From contig JAGBFQ010000032.1 in NCBI GenBank assembly GCA_017936385.1, positions 1 through 64,000 of the forward strand: a stretch of 64,000 nt of DNA, in the 5' to 3' direction. A program made the position numbers and the translations under genes. Below are positions 1 through 58,980 of the stretch, one piece after another; within the stretch, counting starts at the first letter, position 1, and every line of letters begins with the position of its first letter. The notes beneath the pieces were generated by a model, which was given only the letters and a program-made list of their open reading frames with translations, did no database searches and was not told the origin of the DNA. Origin of the DNA: Rikenellaceae bacterium (GTDB lineage Bacteria > Bacteroidota > Bacteroidia > Bacteroidales > Rikenellaceae).

Positions 1-109
1 ACTACTCTGCATATACCCCGCGTGGGTATATGCAGAGTAGTTAAACCCCCGGTCTGCGGGTCATTTTTTGGTTCTTTTTGATGACTCAAAAAGAACATAC
101 CCCCTCAAA
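1..109 (-). repeat. Palindromic 3'-end element, copy 1 (cut by window edge)
   Basis: Read on the minus strand this starts with TTTGAGGGGG, whose TGA is the stop codon of the lipoprotein gene upstream. A hairpin GTTCTTTTTG/CAAAAAGAAC follows, then a spacer with CCGCAGACCGGGGG, then a large palindrome (plus 1-42) with arms of about 19 bp. The spacer and palindrome match copy 2 at 6433-6495 essentially base for base, in inverted orientation. The far flank lies outside the window. Confidence 0.85.
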
Positions 110-5637: not shown

Positions 5638-6386
5638 TACGTGCCGAACATATAACCAAAAGTTTCGAGGGAAGAACCGTGCTGAACGACATCTCGGCAA
5701 CCTTCGAGAAGGGTAAAACAAACCTTATTATCGGCCGAAGCGGCTCGGGTAAGACCGTGTTTCTGAAGAGCTTGGTCGGCCTGCACCCCGTGGATTCGGG
5801 CGAAATATACTATGGCGACACCTGTTTCACGCGACTCGGATTCCGTGAATTAAAGGCCATTCGCCGCGACATGGGAATGATTTTTCAGGGCGGAGCGTTG
5901 CTCGACAGCTCGAGCGTCGAAGAGAACGTCAAATTGCCGCTCGACCTGTTCACCACCCAAAGTGAACACGAAAAAATGGAGCGCGTGAACTTCTGTCTGG
6001 AGCGCGTAAATCTACACGGCGCAAACCACCTATACCCCTCGGAACTGAGTGGCGGTATGGTTAAACGTGTGGCTATTGCACGAGCCATTGTGTTGAACCC
6101 CAAGTACCTGTTCTGTGATGAACCCAACTCGGGACTCGACCCCATGACCTCGGTGGTGATTGACCACCTTATTCAGGAGATTACCAAGGAGTACAACATA
6201 ACAACCATCATCAACACCCACGACATGAACTCGGTGATGGGTATTGGTGAGAAAATTATATACATTCACGAGGGACGCAAGTGGTGGGAAGGCTCGTCGG
6301 CCGACATCCTGACCTCGACGAATAAAGAACTAAACGAATTCGTCTTTGCATCCGAGTTGGCAAAGGCAGCAAGAGCAAAGTTATAA
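5634..6386 (+). CDS. mlaF: MlaF-type ABC transporter ATP-binding protein
   Basis: 250 residues. Walker A is GRSGSGKT (about residue 37), the ABC signature is LSGGMVKRVAIARA, and Walker B is YLFCDEPNSGLDP, with a switch His in NTHDMNSV. The PNSGLDP form is characteristic of MlaF-like ATPases. I start it at the ATG at 5634, which overlaps the permease stop. The frame stays open further upstream to 5376, but that extension is a shadow of mlaE. Energises the permease for phospholipid transport. The gene ends 2 bp before a palindromic repeat element. Confidence 0.88.
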   Translation: MIRAEHITKSFEGRTVLNDISATFEKGKTNLIIGRSGSGKTVFLKSLVGLHPVDSGEIYYGDTCFTRLGFRELKAIRRDMGMIFQGGALLDSSSVEENVKLPLDLFTTQSEHEKMERVNFCLERVNLHGANHLYPSELSGGMVKRVAIARAIVLNPKYLFCDEPNSGLDPMTSVVIDHLIQEITKEYNITTIINTHDMNSVMGIGEKIIYIHEGRKWWEGSSADILTSTNKELNEFVFASELAKAARAKL

Positions 6387-6388
6387 GG

Positions 6389-6550
6389 TTTGAGGGGTTA
6401 TGTTCTTTTGTATCGACAAAAGAACCAAAAACGACCCGCAGACCGGGGGTTTAACTACTCTGCATATACCCACGCGGGGTATATGCAGAGTAGTTATAAG
6501 AACCACGGCTGGGATTATTTTGATTCAGTTGACGTTTCAAAAAAGAACAT
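6389..6550 (+). repeat. Palindromic 3'-end element, copy 2 (complete)
   Basis: Starts 2 bp after the mlaF stop. Modules in order: TTTGAGGGG; hairpin GTTCTTTTG/CAAAAGAAC (6402-6425); spacer CCGCAGACCGGGGG; a 20-bp-stem palindrome (6452-6471 with 6477-6496, loop ACGCG); and a right flank TTTTGATTCAGTTGA (6519-6533) followed by TTCAAAAAAGAAC. The spacer plus palindrome is identical to copy 1 in inverted orientation. The right flank is shared with copy 3. Another short hairpin CTTTTTG/CAAAAAG lies at 6571-6590. Confidence 0.85.
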
Positions 6551-6624
6551 AACAAAAGTGACATTGCCACCTTTTTGTCGACACAAAAAGTACATAAAGA
6601 AAAAACTTAAAACAATATAAAATT

Positions 6625-7479
6625 ATGAAACCCGAGTACAAGACTTTTGTAGATGATTTGATTGAATTGGCTATTCGTGAGGATATTGGCGATGGTGACC
6701 ACACATCGTTGGCAAGTGTCCCCGAGAGCACGCGCGGCCGCATGCGCTTGTTGGTAAAGCAACCCGGAATTCTGGCAGGTGTCGAGATTGCCGAGATGGT
6801 GTTCCGTCGCTTGGATGCCGAGGTGACTTTCGAGAAACTGCTGGACGATGGTGCAAAGGTTGAGCCGGGTGACGTGGCGTTCTACGTCGAGGGCAAGGAG
6901 CGCACGATGTTGCAGGCCGAGCGTATCGTATTGAATATCATGCAACGTATGACGGGCGTGGCCACACAGACCGCCAAATATGTTGAACGTATTGCGGGCA
7001 CGGGCTGCCGTGTGCTGGATACGCGCAAAACCACTCCGGGTATGAGAGTGCTGGATAAGATGGCCGTTAAGATTGGCGGCGGCGAGAACCACCGTATTGG
7101 CCTGTTCGATATGGTGCTGTTGAAGGACAACCACATTGACTTCTGTGGTGGCGTGGCAAAGGCTATTCGTCAGGTGCACGAGTACTTGGAGGCTAAGGGC
7201 AAGAAACTCCCTATCGAGGTTGAGGTTCGTTCGATGGAGGATATCGACGAAGCTCTGGGCGTGGGAGGTATCGACCGCATCATGCTCGACAACTTCTCGG
7301 TGGAGCAAACTCGCGAGGCGGTGGCCAAGATTGCAGGCCGCGTAGAGGTTGAGTCGTCGGGCGGTATCACTTTCGATACGATTCGTGACTATGCCGAGTG
7401 TGGGGTTGACTTTATTTCGGTGGGTGCGCTGACCCACCAAATCAAGAGTGTTGATTTGAGCCTTAAAGCGTGTGAGTAA
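6625..7479 (+). CDS. nadC: Nicotinate-nucleotide pyrophosphorylase (carboxylating)
   Basis: 284 residues, the usual length. Converts quinolinate and PRPP to nicotinate mononucleotide, CO2 and pyrophosphate in de novo NAD synthesis, in the cytoplasm. Diagnostic segments are DTRKTTPGMR (132-141), GGGENHR (151-157), LLKDNHI (165-171) and the barrel-end VESSGGI. The ATG at 6625 follows an A/T-rich leader. No nadA or nadB is adjacent; the next gene overlaps by one base (TAATG), so nadC is coupled to a secreted peptidase with no obvious metabolic link. No -7 box is visible between the repeat element and the start. Confidence 0.95.
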   Translation: MKPEYKTFVDDLIELAIREDIGDGDHTSLASVPESTRGRMRLLVKQPGILAGVEIAEMVFRRLDAEVTFEKLLDDGAKVEPGDVAFYVEGKERTMLQAERIVLNIMQRMTGVATQTAKYVERIAGTGCRVLDTRKTTPGMRVLDKMAVKIGGGENHRIGLFDMVLLKDNHIDFCGGVAKAIRQVHEYLEAKGKKLPIEVEVRSMEDIDEALGVGGIDRIMLDNFSVEQTREAVAKIAGRVEVESSGGITFDTIRDYAECGVDFISVGALTHQIKSVDLSLKACE

Positions 7480-17332: not shown

Positions 17333-17353
17333 AACAAAATGAATTCACAATCA

Positions 17354-17381
17354 ATTGTGAATTGTGCATTGTGCATTGTGA
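17354..17381. repeat. Heptamer array, four units of ATTGTG(A/C)
   Basis: ATTGTGA, ATTGTGC, ATTGTGC, ATTGTGA, ending 2 bp before the manA stop codon. Complementary to the array at 17214-17241, so the pair could close a long hairpin around the 48-bp duplication. A small palindrome AATTCACAAT/ATTGTGAATT also forms at 17342-17363. Confidence 0.85.
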
Positions 17382-17383
17382 AT

Positions 17384-18352
17384 TTAACAATACGACTCAA
17401 GCAGAGTGAGATTGCCTTCGAAGCGGATGGATTGTTCGATGGCGGGAACCAGATAGACGTCCCCTTTGGAAAGTTTTACCTTGCCGTCCGAGTAGTACAT
17501 TTCGCCCTCGCCTTCGGTGCAGATGTAGATGACAAACGAGGGCAGCCATGCCAGGTCGCGCACAAAACGCTCCTCGACACGAATCAGGTTGGTCGTAAAG
17601 TGCGTGCAGTCGACCAACTCCACAACCTCGCCCGCAATGCTCGGCTTGGTACGCACGTACTCAACGTCGGACGAGAAGCGAATGGCCTGCAAAGCCAACT
17701 CGGGATTCAGCTCGCGCATCTGACCGTTCGAATCAACGCGCTCCCAATCGTATATACGATAAGTAATATCGCTTGTTTGTTGAATTTCAAATAGTTTGAT
17801 GCCGCCGCAAATGCAGTGGATTGTACCCGCAGGAATGTAGAACGAATCACCCGGATGAACGGTATAGCGGTTGAGCAGGTCGGGCAGTGTGCCGTTCGAC
17901 AGAGCTGCGGCAAACTTCTCGGGCGTTGTGCCCTCCTTGAGTCCGACCAGAATTTCGGCCCCCTCCTCGCACTCGGTGATATACCACATCTCGCTCTTGC
18001 CCCATGCGTTGTGCAGTCGTGCGGCCTGGGCATTTCCGGGATGCACCTGAATCGAGAGCAACTCCTCGGCATCCATATACTTAACCAACAGCGGGAATTC
18101 GGTTCCGAACTTGTTGTACACCTCATCGCCCACCAGCTCACCCATGAAAACCTCCATCAGTTCGCCAATGGTATTATCCTTGAGTCGTCCTTCGGACACG
18201 ACCGACATCTCGTCCTCGAAGCCCGAAATTTCCCAACTTTCGCCGATTCTCACGTCCTCTCCTTTGCGCGACGCAGGCAGTCGGTCGCACAGCTCGGTGC
18301 CGCCCCAGATACGCTCTTTGAGCAGGGGTTTGAATTTGAGAGGATAAAGCAT
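17384..18352 (-). CDS. manA: Class I mannose-6-phosphate isomerase
   Basis: 322 residues from the ATG at 18352 (MLYPLKFKPLLKERIWGG). The longer frame to 18469 runs past the promoter and is not used. Interconverts fructose-6-phosphate and mannose-6-phosphate. The zinc-site segments are visible: SIQVHPGN (about 98-105, Gln and His), KSEMWYI with the metal Glu, and IPAGTIHCICGG with the second His. The short Bacteroidetes/Firmicutes type of the family. Monocistronic with its own -7 box 31 bp upstream; it ends next to a heptamer array. Confidence 0.93.
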   Translation of the reverse strand: MLYPLKFKPLLKERIWGGTELCDRLPASRKGEDVRIGESWEISGFEDEMSVVSEGRLKDNTIGELMEVFMGELVGDEVYNKFGTEFPLLVKYMDAEELLSIQVHPGNAQAARLHNAWGKSEMWYITECEEGAEILVGLKEGTTPEKFAAALSNGTLPDLLNRYTVHPGDSFYIPAGTIHCICGGIKLFEIQQTSDITYRIYDWERVDSNGQMRELNPELALQAIRFSSDVEYVRTKPSIAGEVVELVDCTHFTTNLIRVEERFVRDLAWLPSFVIYICTEGEGEMYYSDGKVKLSKGDVYLVPAIEQSIRFEGNLTLLESYC

Positions 18353-23471: not shown

Positions 23472-24548
23472 ATGGCCAAAGGGGGAGCAACATTCAAAAA
23501 CTGCGTGGTGGAGTTCGACCGCATAATGAGCGACATCCGCGCACAGAGCTACAAACCTGTCTATCTGTTGATGGGCGAGGAGGGCTTCTTCATTGACGCC
23601 ATCTCGGGCCTTATCGAAGAGAGCGCGTTGGATGAGGTCGAGCGCTCGTTCTGTCAGACGGTGATTTACGGCAAGGATGCGCGGGCGGGTGAGATTGTCG
23701 ACCTGGCGCGTCAGGTGCCCATGATGGGTTCGCGCAGCGTGGTTATTGTCCGCGAGGCACAGCAACTGTCGGCTTTCGAAGAGCTGGACAGCTACGCCAA
23801 GGCGCCAAACCCGAGCACCATACTTGTGTTGTGTTACAAAAAAGAGAAGGGTTTGGACAAGCGTTCGGCGGTCTACAAACATTTGGCAGCTGTGGGCGAG
23901 GTTTTCGAGTCGGTGCGTCCCCGAGATTACGAGATGAAGGATTGGCTCAGAGGTTTTGTCGAGCGCAAAGGCATGAAGATGGAGCAGAAGGGCGTCGAAA
24001 TGATTGTTGACCACGTGGGAACCGACATCGCCAAGATTTCCAACGAGTTGGATAAACTTCTGGTAGCTCTGCCCGAGGGTACACGCATCATAACTCCCGA
24101 CCACATCGAAGAGCACATCGGCATCAGCAAGGACTTCAACGTCTATGAGCTCAACCGCGCCGTCATGGCACGCGACGCGGCACGTGCACTCACCATTGCC
24201 GACTACATGTCGCGCAACCCAAAGAGCAACCCGCTGGTGGTCATCATAATGACGATGTTCGGTCAATTCAAACAGGTGTTCCTCTACAACTACTACAAGT
24301 GGTTGGTGGCACGCAAGGGGCAGACAATGCCCTCGGATATGGAGATGTGTCGCATCTTGGGAGTACCCGCACCCTTCTTTGTCAATGAGGTCAGAGCCTC
24401 CGCAGCACTCTACCCCAATAAGGTGACTTTTAAGATTTTAGGGATTATACGTGAGTACGACGCACGCAGCAAAGGTATCGACACGGGAGGCGTCTCCGAC
24501 GGCGAACTCCTCCGCGAAATGATACTCAAAATAGTGACAGCGAGTTAA
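23472..24548 (+). CDS. holA: DNA polymerase III subunit delta
   Basis: 358 residues. Clamp-loader wrench subunit. The N-terminal segment YKPVYLLMGEEGFFIDAI and the second conserved block MGSRSVVIVREAQQL (about 78-92) are typical of HolA, as is FNVYELNRAVMARDAARAL (about 216-234) in the middle domain. Opens the beta clamp during loading. It ends the run that begins with murB. A palindromic repeat element begins immediately after the stop. Confidence 0.92.
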   Translation: MAKGGATFKNCVVEFDRIMSDIRAQSYKPVYLLMGEEGFFIDAISGLIEESALDEVERSFCQTVIYGKDARAGEIVDLARQVPMMGSRSVVIVREAQQLSAFEELDSYAKAPNPSTILVLCYKKEKGLDKRSAVYKHLAAVGEVFESVRPRDYEMKDWLRGFVERKGMKMEQKGVEMIVDHVGTDIAKISNELDKLLVALPEGTRIITPDHIEEHIGISKDFNVYELNRAVMARDAARALTIADYMSRNPKSNPLVVIIMTMFGQFKQVFLYNYYKWLVARKGQTMPSDMEMCRILGVPAPFFVNEVRASAALYPNKVTFKILGIIREYDARSKGIDTGGVSDGELLREMILKIVTAS

Positions 24549-24700
24549 GGGAGGGGACTGTTCTTTTTGAGCCATCAAAAAGAACCAAAAAATGGGTCGC
24601 AGACCGACGGTGTAATTCCTACTAATAACCATTGTGGTTATTAGTAGGAATTATATAGACGGAGGCGACTAATTTTGATTCAGTTGAGGATTCAAAGAGA
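24549..24700 (+). repeat. Palindromic 3'-end element, copy 3 (different palindrome)
   Basis: Begins at the holA stop with GGGAGGGG. The hairpin GTTCTTTTTG/CAAAAAGAAC (24560-24584) and spacer CGCAGACCG match copies 1 and 2. The large palindrome is a different sequence: 19-bp perfect arms at 24613-24631 and 24635-24653 with a TTG loop. The right flank AATTTTGATTCAGTTGA again matches copy 2. Confidence 0.85.
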
Positions 24701-24744
24701 AAAGCACACCTCCGAAACTCCCTATTATCACGATTTTAATAAAA

Positions 24745-24772
24745 ATTGTGCATTGTGCATTGTGCATTGTGA
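24745..24772 (+). repeat. Heptamer array, four units of ATTGTG(C/A)
   Basis: ATTGTGC three times, then ATTGTGA, then ATT. Same unit as the arrays beside manA and clpP. It ends 9 bp before the ATG of the next gene, so it forms most of that gene's leader. Confidence 0.85.
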
Positions 24773-24781
24773 ATTTAAAGA

Positions 24782-51451: not shown

Positions 51452-52384
51452 ATGGGCGGATACGGACGAACAATAGCTATATTGTTGGCAATACTCCTTG
51501 GGGTGTTGTTTTACAAGGTATTGATGCCCATTACCTTCTTGATGCCGTATCTTATCTTCGTACTGCTGTTCATTCCGTTCTGCGGAGTGTCACCGCGACA
51601 AATGAAGTTCGGTAAACTGCACCTCTCGCTGGCTATATTTCAGGTTTTGGTGTGCGTTGCCACCTACTTCTTGGTGCGCCAATTCGACGAGATATTGGCC
51701 CAGGGTGCCATGATTTGCGTGCTCGCCCCAACCGCCACGGCCGCCGTGGTTATAGGCGCACTGCTGGGTGGACGGGTCGAAGTTATTGTGAGTTATACGG
51801 TGTTGATTAACTGTATAGTAGCGGTGGTTGCCCCGCTGATGTTTACCTACATCGGAGCTGTCGGTGAGGCGGTATCGTTCGGGGCTTTGTTGGTAGCGAT
51901 ATTGAAGCGTGTGATGCCCATATTGTTGCTGCCGCTGATTATGGCTCTCGTGCTGCGCAAGGTGTCGCTGAAAATCGCCTTGGAAGTCAATAAACTCAAG
52001 AGTTATACGTTCTACATTTGGCTGTTCTCGCTGACGCTGACCATGGCCTCGACGGTCGACTATATCGTCAAACGTGGCACCGACCATATCTCAGAATATA
52101 TCACGCTCGCCGCCGTGGCACTTGTTATAGCCGTGTCGCAATACCTCATCGGCTGGCACATCGGCAAACGCTACGGCCGACGAATCGAGGGTTGCCAACT
52201 GCTGGGGCAAAAGAATACCATCCTCACCATTTGGATGGCTCAAAACTTTCTGAACCCCCTTGCAAGCATTGCCCCCGCAGCCTACGTTCTGTGGCAAAAC
52301 ATCATCAATAGTATCGAACTCGGCATCGCCAAAGGAGGACACATCAACCCTCAAGACGACCCGAATCATGTTATTCCCGAATAA
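51452..52384 (+). CDS. Bile acid:sodium symporter-like (BASS) transporter
   Basis: 310 residues with about nine or ten hydrophobic segments, including FLMPYLIFVLLFIPFCGV, APTATAAVVIGALLGG (about 92-107, like the PTA(T)A motif of BASS proteins) and LLGQKNTILTIWMAQNFLNP near residue 260. BASS-type Na+-coupled transporters carry organic anions; many bacterial members have unknown substrates. Only 13 bp behind yqeY, so probably cotranscribed. The stop is followed by repeat material. Confidence 0.75.
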   Translation: MGGYGRTIAILLAILLGVLFYKVLMPITFLMPYLIFVLLFIPFCGVSPRQMKFGKLHLSLAIFQVLVCVATYFLVRQFDEILAQGAMICVLAPTATAAVVIGALLGGRVEVIVSYTVLINCIVAVVAPLMFTYIGAVGEAVSFGALLVAILKRVMPILLLPLIMALVLRKVSLKIALEVNKLKSYTFYIWLFSLTLTMASTVDYIVKRGTDHISEYITLAAVALVIAVSQYLIGWHIGKRYGRRIEGCQLLGQKNTILTIWMAQNFLNPLASIAPAAYVLWQNIINSIELGIAKGGHINPQDDPNHVIPE

Positions 52385-52426
52385 TGTTTGAGGGGGGAGT
52401 TGTTCTTTTGCATCAACACAATAAAG
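52385..52426 (+). repeat. Fragment of the palindromic 3'-end element (left module)
   Basis: Right behind the stop codon: TTTGAGGGGGG, then TTGTTCTTTTGCATCAACACAATAAAG, which keeps the first module and the left hairpin arm but has a decayed right arm. No spacer or large palindrome follows; a different hairpin element begins at 52427. Confidence 0.6.
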
Positions 52427-55235: not shown

Positions 55236-55294
55236 CCGGATAGTTTTGAATGCAGAAAACAATTAAAAATCACAATAACAAACAGATAGTTACT

Positions 55295-58200
55295 ATGAAA
55301 GAGAAAAAATTCATTACATGTGACGGTAACTATGCAGCTGCACACATCGCCTATATGTTCAGCGAGGTGGCTGCAATCTATCCTATCACACCTTCGTCGA
55401 CCATGGCCGAGCTGGTTGACGAGTGGGCGGCTTCGGGCCGAAAAAACATCTTTGGCGAGAAAGTCGAAGTTGTAGAGATGCAATCGGAGGCAGGTGCCGC
55501 AGGTGCACTTCACGGTTCGCTCCAAGCCGGCGCACTCAGCACAACCTTCACCGCTTCGCAAGGTCTGCTGCTGATGATTCCCAATATGTACAAAATCGCT
55601 GGTGAGCTGCTCCCCGGCGTAATGCACGTTTCGGCACGCGCCCTGGCTGCTCAAGCGTTGTCGATTTTCGGCGACCACCAAGACGTTATGGCTTGCCGCC
55701 AAACAGGTTTCGCTATGTTGGCAACCTCGTCGGTTCAAGAGGTTATGGACTTGGCCGGTATCGCACACTTGGTGTCGCTCAAGAGCCGCGTTCCCTTCCT
55801 GCACTTCTTTGACGGCTTCCGCACCTCGCACGAGATTCAAAAAGTCGAGCTGATGGAGCAAGAGGACCTCGAGCAACTGCTCGACAAGGAGGCTTTGGCA
55901 GGTTTCCGTTCGCGCGGACTGAACCCCGAGCACCCCGTAACCCGTGGTACTGCCCAAAACCCCGACATCTATTTCCAAACCCGTGAGGCAAGCAACAAAT
56001 TCTATGACGCTGTGCCCGACATGGTTGCCGAGGCTATGGCAAGCATTTCGAAAATCACCGGCCGTAGTTACAAACCCTTCACCTACTACGGTGCCGAGGA
56101 TGCCGAGCGCGTGGTTGTGGCTATGGGTTCGATTACCGAGACCCTCAAAGAGACAGTGGACTACCTGTGCGCCAAAGGCGAAAAGGTGGGTGTCGTAACC
56201 GTTCACCTGTATCGTCCCTTCTCGCCCAAATACCTGCTCGACGTTGTTCCTGCATCGGTTAAGAGAATCTGCGTTCTGGACCGTACCAAAGAGCCCGGAG
56301 CAGATGGCGAGCCTCTGTACCTCGACGTACGCAACGTATTCTACGGCAAGGAGAACGCCCCCGTTATCATCGGTGGCCGCTACGGCTTGTCGAGCAAAGA
56401 TACCACTCCCGCACAGATGATTGCCGTGTTCGAGAACTTGGCTGCGGCCGAGCCTCGCAACCGCTTCACCGTGGGTATCAACGACGACGTTACTATGTTG
56501 TCGCTGCCCGTGGGCGAGGAGATTTCGATGGCCAAAGAGGGCACTTTCGAGGCTTTGTTCTTCGGTCTGGGTGCCGACGGTACCGTGGGCGCCAACAAGA
56601 ACTCGATTAAGATTATCGGTGGCTCGACCAACAAGTACTGCCAAGCATACTTCTCGTATGACTCGAAGAAATCGGGCGGTTACACCTCGTCGCACTTGCG
56701 CTTCGGTGACAAACCCATCACTTCGCCCTACTTGGTGACCACTCCCGACTTTGTGGCTTGCCACGTTCCTTCGTATGTCGACAAATACGACGTGCTGAAG
56801 GGTCTGAAGAAGGGTGGCTCGTTCCTGCTCAACAGCATCCACGATGCCGAGAACACCTGCCGCACCCTGCCCGTGCACATGAAAAAGTACCTGGCCGAAA
56901 ACAATATCAACTTCTATATCATCAACGCAACCAAGATTGCTGCCGAGTTGGGTCTGGGCAACCGCACCAACACCATTATGCAGAGCGCATTCTTCAAGAT
57001 TTCGAACGTTATTCCGTTCGACGTAGCAGTTGAGGAGATGAAGAAAGCTATCCTCAAATCCTATGGCAAGAAGGGTGAGGATATCGTAAATATGAACTAC
57101 GCCGCAGTTGACGCAGGTGGCAATGCCGTAGAGCAAGTTGCCGTTCCCGCCGAGTGGGCATCGCTCACCGAGGAGCCCAAAGCCGAGTGCAACTGCACCA
57201 GCGCGAAACCTGAGTTCGTAACCAAGATTGTCGAGCCTATCAACGCGCTGAAGGGCGACGACCTCCCCGTGAGCGCATTCAACGGCCGCGAGGACGGTAC
57301 TTGGGACAATGGTACCGCCGCTTACGAGAAACGCGGTATCGCTACCAACATCCCCGAGTGGATTACCGATAACTGTATCCAATGTAACCAATGTTCGTTT
57401 GTGTGTCCTCACGCTGCAATCCGTCCGTTCCTCGCAACCGAGGAAGAGGCTGCCGCAGCTCCCGAGGGAACTTCGTTCAAACAAGGCTTGGGCGAGACCA
57501 AAGCTTACAAATTCCGCATCCAAGTGTCGCCGCTCGATTGTACCGGTTGCGGCAACTGTGTGGATGTTTGCCCCGCCAAAGAGAAGGCTCTTGTAATGAA
57601 ACCTTTGGATAGCCAAAAGGCGGAGGAGGCTCGCTGGGAGTATATGAACGGCACAGTAGGCTACAAAGAGAACGCTGTGGACAAAACCAAAACCGTCAAG
57701 AACAGCCAATTTGCTCAACCTCTGTTTGAGTTCTCGGGCGCTTGCGCAGGTTGCGGTGAGACCCCCTATGTTAAAGCCATTACCCAACTGTTCGGCGACC
57801 GTATGATGGTGGCCAACGCTACCGGTTGTAGCTCGATTTACTCGGGTTCGGCTCCCTCGACTCCCTACTGCACCAACGCACAAGGCCACGGTCCTGCTTG
57901 GGCTAACTCGCTGTTCGAGGATAACGCCGAGTTCGGTCTGGGTATGTATATCGCCGAGGAGAAACTCCGCGATAAGGTGCAAATCCTGATGGAGAAAGCT
58001 ATTGCCGAGTGCGAGTGCTGCTCGGAGGAGCTGAAAGGCGTGATGAAAGAGTGGATTGACGCCCGTTACAGCGCAAGCGGCAGCGCCGAGGTTTCGGCTC
58101 GCCTGATTCCTATGCTGGAGGCTTGTGGCTGCCAAACCTGCCAAGAGCTGCTGGCTCTGCGCCAACACTTCATCAAGAAGAGCCAATGGATTATCGGTGG

Positions 58201-58831
58201 TGACGGTTGGGGCTACGACATCGGCTTCGGTGGTTTGGACCACGTTTTGGCTTCGGGCAAGGACGTTAACGTTCTGATTATCGACACCGAGGTTTACTCG
58301 AACACCGGCGGTCAGTCGTCGAAGGCTACCCCCATTGGTGCTGTTGCTAAATTTGCCGCAAGCGGTAAACGTATCCGCAAGAAAGATATCGGTGCCATCG
58401 CAATGACCTATGGCTATGTTTACGTAGCTCAAGTTTCGATTGGTGCATCGCAGGCTCAATTGTTCAAGGTTCTCAAAGAGGCCGAGGCTTACAACGGTCC
58501 TTCGCTGATTATCGCCTACGCACCTTGTATCAACCACGGTATCAAGGGCGGTATGACCCGCACCCAAACCGTCGGCAAACAAGCTGTTGAGTGTGGTTAC
58601 TGGCACTTGTGGCACTTCAACCCCGAGTTGGAGGCCGAGGGCAAGAACCCGTTCGTGTATGACTCGAAGGAGCCCGATTGGAGCAAATTCCAAGACTTCT
58701 TGGCTAAGGAGGTTCGCTACACTTCGTTGTTGAAGACCTTCCCCGCCGAGGCTAAGGAGTTGTTCGCAGCAGCCGAGGAGAACGCTAAATGGCGTTACAA
58801 ATCGTACATGCGCCGCCTCAAAGAGGAGTAA
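55295..58831 (+). CDS. nifJ: Pyruvate:ferredoxin (flavodoxin) oxidoreductase
   Basis: 1178 residues, the full single-chain form. Oxidises pyruvate with CoA to acetyl-CoA, CO2 and reduced ferredoxin, a key anaerobic step. N-terminal YPITPSSTMAELVDEWA (about 29-45); ferredoxin-like domain with two 4Fe-4S motifs CIQCNQCSFVCP (about 694) and CTGCGNCVDVCP (about 749); C-terminal ThDP domain with cysteines CAGCGE, GDGWGYDIGFGGLDHV and NTGGQSSK. Start ATG 55295 fits the conserved KKFITCDGNYAAAHIAYM start. The heavy codon bias, the strong leader and the terminator suggest high expression. Confidence 0.97.
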   Translation: MKEKKFITCDGNYAAAHIAYMFSEVAAIYPITPSSTMAELVDEWAASGRKNIFGEKVEVVEMQSEAGAAGALHGSLQAGALSTTFTASQGLLLMIPNMYKIAGELLPGVMHVSARALAAQALSIFGDHQDVMACRQTGFAMLATSSVQEVMDLAGIAHLVSLKSRVPFLHFFDGFRTSHEIQKVELMEQEDLEQLLDKEALAGFRSRGLNPEHPVTRGTAQNPDIYFQTREASNKFYDAVPDMVAEAMASISKITGRSYKPFTYYGAEDAERVVVAMGSITETLKETVDYLCAKGEKVGVVTVHLYRPFSPKYLLDVVPASVKRICVLDRTKEPGADGEPLYLDVRNVFYGKENAPVIIGGRYGLSSKDTTPAQMIAVFENLAAAEPRNRFTVGINDDVTMLSLPVGEEISMAKEGTFEALFFGLGADGTVGANKNSIKIIGGSTNKYCQAYFSYDSKKSGGYTSSHLRFGDKPITSPYLVTTPDFVACHVPSYVDKYDVLKGLKKGGSFLLNSIHDAENTCRTLPVHMKKYLAENNINFYIINATKIAAELGLGNRTNTIMQSAFFKISNVIPFDVAVEEMKKAILKSYGKKGEDIVNMNYAAVDAGGNAVEQVAVPAEWASLTEEPKAECNCTSAKPEFVTKIVEPINALKGDDLPVSAFNGREDGTWDNGTAAYEKRGIATNIPEWITDNCIQCNQCSFVCPHAAIRPFLATEEEAAAAPEGTSFKQGLGETKAYKFRIQVSPLDCTGCGNCVDVCPAKEKALVMKPLDSQKAEEARWEYMNGTVGYKENAVDKTKTVKNSQFAQPLFEFSGACAGCGETPYVKAITQLFGDRMMVANATGCSSIYSGSAPSTPYCTNAQGHGPAWANSLFEDNAEFGLGMYIAEEKLRDKVQILMEKAIAECECCSEELKGVMKEWIDARYSASGSAEVSARLIPMLEACGCQTCQELLALRQHFIKKSQWIIGGDGWGYDIGFGGLDHVLASGKDVNVLIIDTEVYSNTGGQSSKATPIGAVAKFAASGKRIRKKDIGAIAMTYGYVYVAQVSIGASQAQLFKVLKEAEAYNGPSLIIAYAPCINHGIKGGMTRTQTVGKQAVECGYWHLWHFNPELEAEGKNPFVYDSKEPDWSKFQDFLAKEVRYTSLLKTFPAEAKELFAAAEENAKWRYKSYMRRLKEE

Positions 58832-58896: not shown

Positions 58897-58980
58897 AGCT
58901 ATTGTTCTTTTGTATCGACAAAAAAAGCCACCCGCAGACTGCGGGCGGCAGGTCACATTTTTGGTGGCTCAGTCTCTATC
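58897..58980 (-). terminator. Variant palindromic element acting as the trxA terminator
   Basis: On the plus strand it opens with TTGTTCTTTTGTATCGACAAAA, the left module of the dispersed element (given as parts), and has CCCGCAGACTGCGGG as its palindrome. On the minus strand, behind the trxA stop, GGTGGCT/AGCCACC arms enclose the stem CCCGC/GCGGG and end in TGGCTTTTTTT, a good intrinsic terminator. Confidence 0.7.

Follow-up and report, generated by a model that had tools for sequence, protein, structure and literature searches.

The Rikenellaceae genome examined here carries a real and lineage-restricted family of non-coding repeats, built of several hairpins and absolute in their position and orientation relative to genes. 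We put the probability at roughly two in three that this is a mobile repeat family, in kind like MITEs and REP-type elements, with its movement inferred from comparisons between copies and between genomes and any function putative. The family is young: close relatives still have empty sites, and its copies keep their structure even as their sequence is replaced.

Copies in the window

The host genome (G000) comprises 1.84 Mb in 36 contigs and is 90.5% complete. The window, that is, the whole stretch of 64,000 nucleotides that was analysed, is G000:C15:1-64000. The element has two forms: an A unit alone, of about 130–190 bp, and an A unit together with an inverted B unit, about 480–600 bp in total, in which the A and B heads face inward. 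The preliminary description had named five places in the window with shared modules, and all five read as described, although the forms at 52385 and 58897 are degraded. The features are as follows.

1–109, minus strand: copy 1, A-type, cut by the contig end (95 bits), with hairpin H1 at 71–96, hairpin H2 at 48–60 and palindrome H3 at 1–43; its TGA, within TT-TGA-GGGG, is the stop codon of the minus-strand reading frame 105–830
6389–~6542, plus strand: copy 2, complete
6389–6401, plus strand: copy 2, left edge TTTGAGGGG-TTAT, 2 bp past the TAA at 6384–6386
6402–6425, plus strand: copy 2, H1 hairpin GTTCTTTTG-TATCGA-CAAAAGAAC
6413–6415 and 6432–6434, plus strand: copy 2, pseudoknot with covariation, in which TCG of the H1 loop can pair with CGA
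6435–6447, plus strand: copy 2, H2 hairpin CCCG-CAGAC-CGGG, loop conserved and stem covarying
6452–6496, plus strand: copy 2, H3, a perfect 20-bp palindrome (100% match) with a 5-nt loop, folding z −8.2
6518–6542, plus strand: copy 2, H4, an imperfect hairpin TTTTGATTC...GTTTCAAAA, which is the TTTTGATTCAGTTGA flank of the preliminary description
6543–6605, plus strand: remnant of a B-type outer module (GAACATAAC, GTGACATTGCCAC, CTTTTTGTCGACACAAAAAG), preceding the next ATG at 6625
24549–24697, plus strand: copy 3, A-type, complete, abutting the TAA of holA (24546–24548), with H1 at 24560–24585, H2 at 24596–24608, H3 at 24612–24654 and H4 at 24674–24697
52387–52425, plus strand: degraded copy, TTTGAGGGG and a broken H1, behind the TAA of the reading frame 51452–52384
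58904–58947, plus strand: degraded copy, decayed H1 and H2 (CCCGCAGACTGCGGG), about 72 bp past the stop codon of the reading frame 55250–58831

Contig C26 begins within copy 1, and the flank AGGGCATTTGAGGGGGTATG is common to both. The last copy had been said to lie behind a terminator, and a terminator-like hairpin is indeed present upstream of it.

A separate repeat family is also seen in the window. Short tandem repeats of the AATTGTG/CATTGTG type stand directly before start codons at 17353–17401 and 24740–24778, and again at loci L016, L070, L076 and L099; the number of repeats in a run varies between species.

Helix architecture and covariation

Copies 1 to 3 share one order of modules: a left edge resembling TTTGAGGGG, H1 (GTTCTTTT(T)G...C(A)AAAAGAAC), an A-rich linker, GCAGACCG, the palindrome H3, and TTTTGATTCAGTTGA. 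This order agrees with the preliminary description, but the stretch there called a CCGCAGACCG spacer belongs to a second hairpin with covarying stems, of which it forms the loop and the 3′ arm. The element is thus a chain of helices: H1, whose loop pairs downstream, then H2 with a conserved loop, then a near-perfect 20-bp palindrome. In the long-form A unit the left edge GTTTGAGGGGTTAT recurs imperfectly, in inverted form, as the right edge AATAACCTCTAAAC; in most short copies these edges have decayed.

The helix sequence varies by copy while complementarity stays. Contacts between the H1 loop and the bases downstream of the linker are TCA/TGA, CCA/TGG, TCG/CGA or CGT/ACG, depending on the copy. 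H2 has a 4-bp stem around the loop CAGAC/CAAAC, and the two arms of the stem change in concert (CCC/GGG, GCC/GGC, GGC/GCC, GTC/GAC, CTC/GAG). When 14 distinct heads are compared, 97.6% of cells pair, and two-sided changes occur in 33 cells, compared with 10.6 ± 2.9 in shuffled controls (0/500) and at most 6 with slid partners. For 21 whole A elements RNAalifold predicts 29 pairs; 18 of these have changed on both sides, mostly in the palindrome. The large palindrome is self-complementary in copies 1 to 3, as had been noted, but its sequence is common only to copies 1 and 2; that of copy 3 is different and still near-perfectly self-complementary.

Single copies fold 7.5–8.9 standard deviations better than shuffled sequences (z −7.5 to −8.9), on either strand. 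Non-Watson-Crick pairs were tried as a means of telling an RNA from a DNA strand and gave no separation: G-U and A-C counts show no clear asymmetry between strands, so that the folded molecule may be either an RNA or a single strand of DNA. A search inside the elements for the Bacteroidota promoter consensus found none.

Hairpins at gene ends invite the explanation that these are ordinary intrinsic terminators which resemble one another. They lie where terminators lie, H2 is followed by a T-run when read antisense, and the same motif (a 4-bp stem and a T-run) occurs in the sense direction at the distal end of long forms. The short form, however, has no sense-strand terminator, the GC-rich stem and U-run of copy 2 being found only on the minus strand. 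Copies also occur within operons, between suf, pur and tRNA-ligase genes, and 120–600 bp of near-identical multi-helix sequence far exceeds what a terminator needs. We regard this explanation as hardly tenable.

Copy number and distribution

The H1 pattern matches 21 times on each strand of the whole genome (21+21), and a reversed control gives 0 matches. A covariance model (R1) was built from 21 copies, with a threshold of 95 bits for the A type. It gives 29 A-type matches above 95 bits in G000, corresponding to about 28 distinct copies, because one copy is split between C15 and C26. About 20 weaker matches are heads of the second, longer unit B. Numerous other contig starts and ends fall in or near copies, and the true copy number is therefore probably higher. 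At one locus (L018) A is present in the sister species but most of the B unit is missing, which shows that the two units are separable. The element is short, non-coding, multi-copy and intergenic.

Among named public genomes, true copies are found only in the sister species, Rikenellaceae bacterium RGIG4262, which is taken to be our genome G006, judged by matching contig coordinates. Twenty-two genome-contig stretches were considered, and all except those of RGIG4262 are chance pattern matches. The covariance model responds among 268 genomes of the family only in G000 and G006, with one weak match in G005, and the exact H1 motif is present in 2 of 11 genus members. Rfam, searched at curated and relaxed thresholds, holds no relevant family, with none above the gathering threshold. 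The phage and plasmid records searched gave no match, and the single match in viral contigs arose by chance and is not a copy.

The A-type matches are unevenly spread: 17 of the 29 lie on the 102 kb of contigs C21, C23, C26 and C34 (L077–L083), and 12 on the other 1.73 Mb. The genes of C23 and C26 map to a single stretch of about 70–110 kb of G005 contig C7, so the long forms are regionally clustered. There is also a third type of unit, left out of the copy counts (G000:C29:1-2235, which is L020, and L008 and L048). Its heads read GTTCTTTTGG...CCAAAAGAACCAAAAGGCTTTTTGCC, its inner hairpins are long, and its units are paired both in tandem and in inverted arrangement.

Position and orientation relative to genes

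The reading frame lying upstream of each A copy on the same strand was located, and the distance was taken from its stop codon to the first base of H1. The placement behind stop codons noted earlier in the window clearly holds when the profile search is extended to the whole genome and to the sister genome. In all 24 G000 copies behind an identifiable gene, H1 begins 3–25 bp past a same-strand stop codon (that of L074 lies about 19 bp past); the remaining G000 copies are at contig ends, or in one case (C21:5-140) behind a gene fragment. The sister genome gives 10 of 10 copies at 4–25 bp, in the same orientation, seven of these sites being orthologous to G000 copies. An intergenic position and orientation chosen at random falls equally close behind a stop codon of the same strand with a frequency of 6.8%, a figure based on rough gene calls with the elements not removed. 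Where a same-strand gene was detected downstream, the copies have one common direction (14/14).

At four copies (copy 1, uvrC, L019 and L022) the stop codon is a TGA in the element's own edge. Comparison with the G005 ortholog, whose UvrC ends in FFKDK-stop where the present one ends in FFKGV-TGA, with the TGA inside the element edge, indicates that the last codons of uvrC have been replaced. TAG ends 12 of the 24 genes in front of a copy and 24% of other genes (p = 0.007; this was one among several comparisons). Unrelated loci have TAGTTTGAGGGG or TAGGATTGTTC in common at the junction. The TAG excess and the shared TAG-containing junctions are suggestive, but only suggestive, of some further stop codons having come with the element.

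Three candidate causes for these regularities were rejected. An A-rich leader at the right edge would favour one orientation, but its A content is 0.55, compared with 0.47 when reversed (p = 0.15), which gives the idea no support. Terminator polarity as a cause of orientation is contradicted by long forms within operons that have a terminator-like hairpin in the sense direction. A TTAA target as a source of stop codons fails in that about half of the left edges, judged by eye, have no TTAA.

Filled and empty sites at orthologous junctions

The C-terminal ends of the upstream genes were searched for in relatives, and the DNA past their stop codons was compared. At 23 orthologous 3′ ends in G006, the A element is found at 7, and at 16 it is absent or another small element stands in its place. 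Thus about two thirds of the G000 sites are empty in the sister species, the genes being conserved; the site of copy 3 is one at which the G006 ortholog has no element. Gaps between the same gene pairs in G005 are mostly 5–28 bp and element-free (5 bp at L023 and L070, 6 at L011, 12 at L006, 13 at L073, 14 at L016, 15 at L018, 23 at L024 and 28 at L012), and the corresponding gaps in G001, G003 and G010 are also often a few base pairs. Sites L006, L070 and L016 date the gain, since G000 and G006 both have the element there and G005 does not. The host genes identified with family models are unrelated housekeeping genes: uvrC, purD, sufS, sufB, pheS, trpS, polA and holA. The empty, tight gaps in relatives imply that the elements were recently inserted between co-transcribed housekeeping genes. 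Tight operon gaps between essential genes have thereby been widened from about 10 to 180–600 bp, and co-expression may well be affected. No target-site duplication could be defined from the filled and empty pairs.

Two further observations concern single junctions. At L006 the sister species (L121, on G006:C28) is without the whole palindrome between CTAC and CCAC, with head and tail intact, suggesting that a palindrome can be cleanly lost. Some 230–320 bp past the element at L076 and at its G006 ortholog L124, the downstream gene opens ...AGGTATCTTTGACATTGACGG, a sequence resembling the site of programmed frameshifting in a release factor 2 gene.

An insertion anywhere in a gap of 5–28 bp is near a stop codon, and stop proximity is therefore largely forced. 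This is not the whole answer, since at L002, L022 and L075 the gaps are wide or convergent in relatives and the element is still within 12 bp of the stop codon. Nor does gap size offer any explanation of the strict orientation. Such stop-hugging, beyond what gap size demands, counts against the mobile-repeat explanation, and it favours instead a site-specific insertion at stop codons, in which a machinery would read features of gene ends in DNA or RNA (for example TAG followed by G-rich sequence), so that insertion and not selection would set position and orientation. The TAG excess and the junction sequences shared by unrelated loci point the same way. On the other hand, neither the distance (3–25 bp) nor the junction sequence is constant, and the TAG enrichment is modest and could stem from stop codons borne by the element. 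We know of no enzyme that acts in this manner, and consider such insertion very unlikely.

The same data bear on the possibility of a selected 3′-UTR element. Here the hairpins would be transcribed with the upstream gene, would block 3′ exonucleases, feed RNase III or stall ribosomes at the stop codon, and would be kept where useful. The strict orientation to the upstream gene, the spacing of 3–25 nt, the covarying pseudoknot and hairpins, and the strong folding all suit such a role; in E. coli, REPs situated no more than 15 nt past a stop codon stall ribosomes (PMC12306157), and ERIC has an orientation-dependent effect on upstream mRNA (PMC2229807). However, about two thirds of the sites lack the element in the sister species despite conserved genes, the host genes have no function in common, the antisense strand folds equally well, and there is no clear preference for G-U pairs over A-C pairs. 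We judge selection of this sort unlikely as the explanation. The preliminary description had offered both readings, and they fare differently: a bias of insertion or retention, above all in orientation, is supported by the empty sites and the orientation, whereas a terminator role is not supported, the short form having no sense-strand U-tract terminator. An RNA 3′-end role in a broader sense is possible but unproven.

Possible mechanism of spread

On the mobile-repeat reading, copies would insert, or survive, in tiny co-directional gaps, right behind the stop codon and in a single orientation to transcription. They would spread by copying of the whole unit, with the helices of resident copies exchanged through conversion or re-insertion. 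The position behind stop codons would be due for the most part to the small size of the gaps and to the harm that an insertion elsewhere would cause, with the left edge able to supply a stop codon. The single orientation would be maintained either through selection on how the neighbouring genes are expressed or by the way in which the element is copied.

Two loci give some indication of how this might happen. At L076 and L016 all three helices differ between G000 and G006, while the outer flanks align and complementarity is kept; the G000 palindrome of L076 closely resembles a palindrome of the sister species at another locus (L042). Stepwise compensatory mutation accounts for these few cases less well than would the copying of whole units, gene conversion or repeated insertion. 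Replacement of helices with complementarity kept could also reflect selection on structure, and to that extent counts against the mobile-repeat explanation. In front of the copy at C21:5-140 (L009), in otherwise AT-rich DNA, lie about 33 bp belonging to the 3′ end of another gene, its TAG stop codon included; that gene is the one upstream of the copy at C34:5-140 (L024). In this single instance flanking DNA may have travelled with the element, or may have remained from a rearrangement.

The 90.5% complete genome gave 0 matches to the Y1 transposase (PF01797), for which five control genomes were positive, and no match to a DDE_1 transposase or a reverse transcriptase, which likewise counts against the mobile-repeat explanation. 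One may imagine a structural element that copies itself with no classical transposase, through template switching or gene conversion between nearby sites on folded single strands. Such an element would drag short gene-end flanks along, keep its helices but not their sequence, take over operon 3′ ends and spacers, and supply a stop codon and a downstream leader in fixed orientation. We consider this specific scheme distinctly unlikely.

Comparison with known repeats

ERIC/IRU, YPAL/RU-2, RUP and NEMIS/Correia are MITE-like small bacterial repeats, none of those in the review being from this phylum; YPAL has internal inverted repeats, and filled and empty sites between relatives (PMC2229807). 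The present family is like them in its length of 100–170 bp, in being non-coding, palindromic, intergenic and multi-copy, and in its filled and empty sites. It differs in having several covarying helices and a pseudoknot between loop and tail, in a palindrome whose sequence changes from copy to copy, and in its unvarying position past a stop codon, with a single orientation and no defined target duplication.

The REP and BIME elements of E. coli and other bacteria are also similar, with palindromes close behind stop codons (PMC12306157), a possible stalling or stabilising role, and units in inverted pairs. The present element is much longer, however, its palindrome has no fixed sequence, and Y1 (RAYT) was not found in G000. 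The aligned palindromes contain no constant tetranucleotide corresponding to the GTAG/CGTC tag of REPs, and those of L026 and L044 hold neither form. By the features tested (Y1 and a constant tag), it is not a REP of the RAYT type.

Integron attC sites are recombination sites conserved in structure and variable in sequence, right behind stop codons in fixed orientation. The likeness lies in structure kept over sequence, stop-codon adjacency and orientation. An integron was rejected on gene content and synteny: the genes here are housekeeping genes of the chromosome, their order is conserved, their orthologs are free of the element, and there is no cassette array.

The family appears to be new and confined to one lineage, and of the same kind as the known small mobile palindromic repeats. 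It allows a test of whether the placement of repeats is due to the copying machinery or to selection, which is an old question for both REPs and MITEs.
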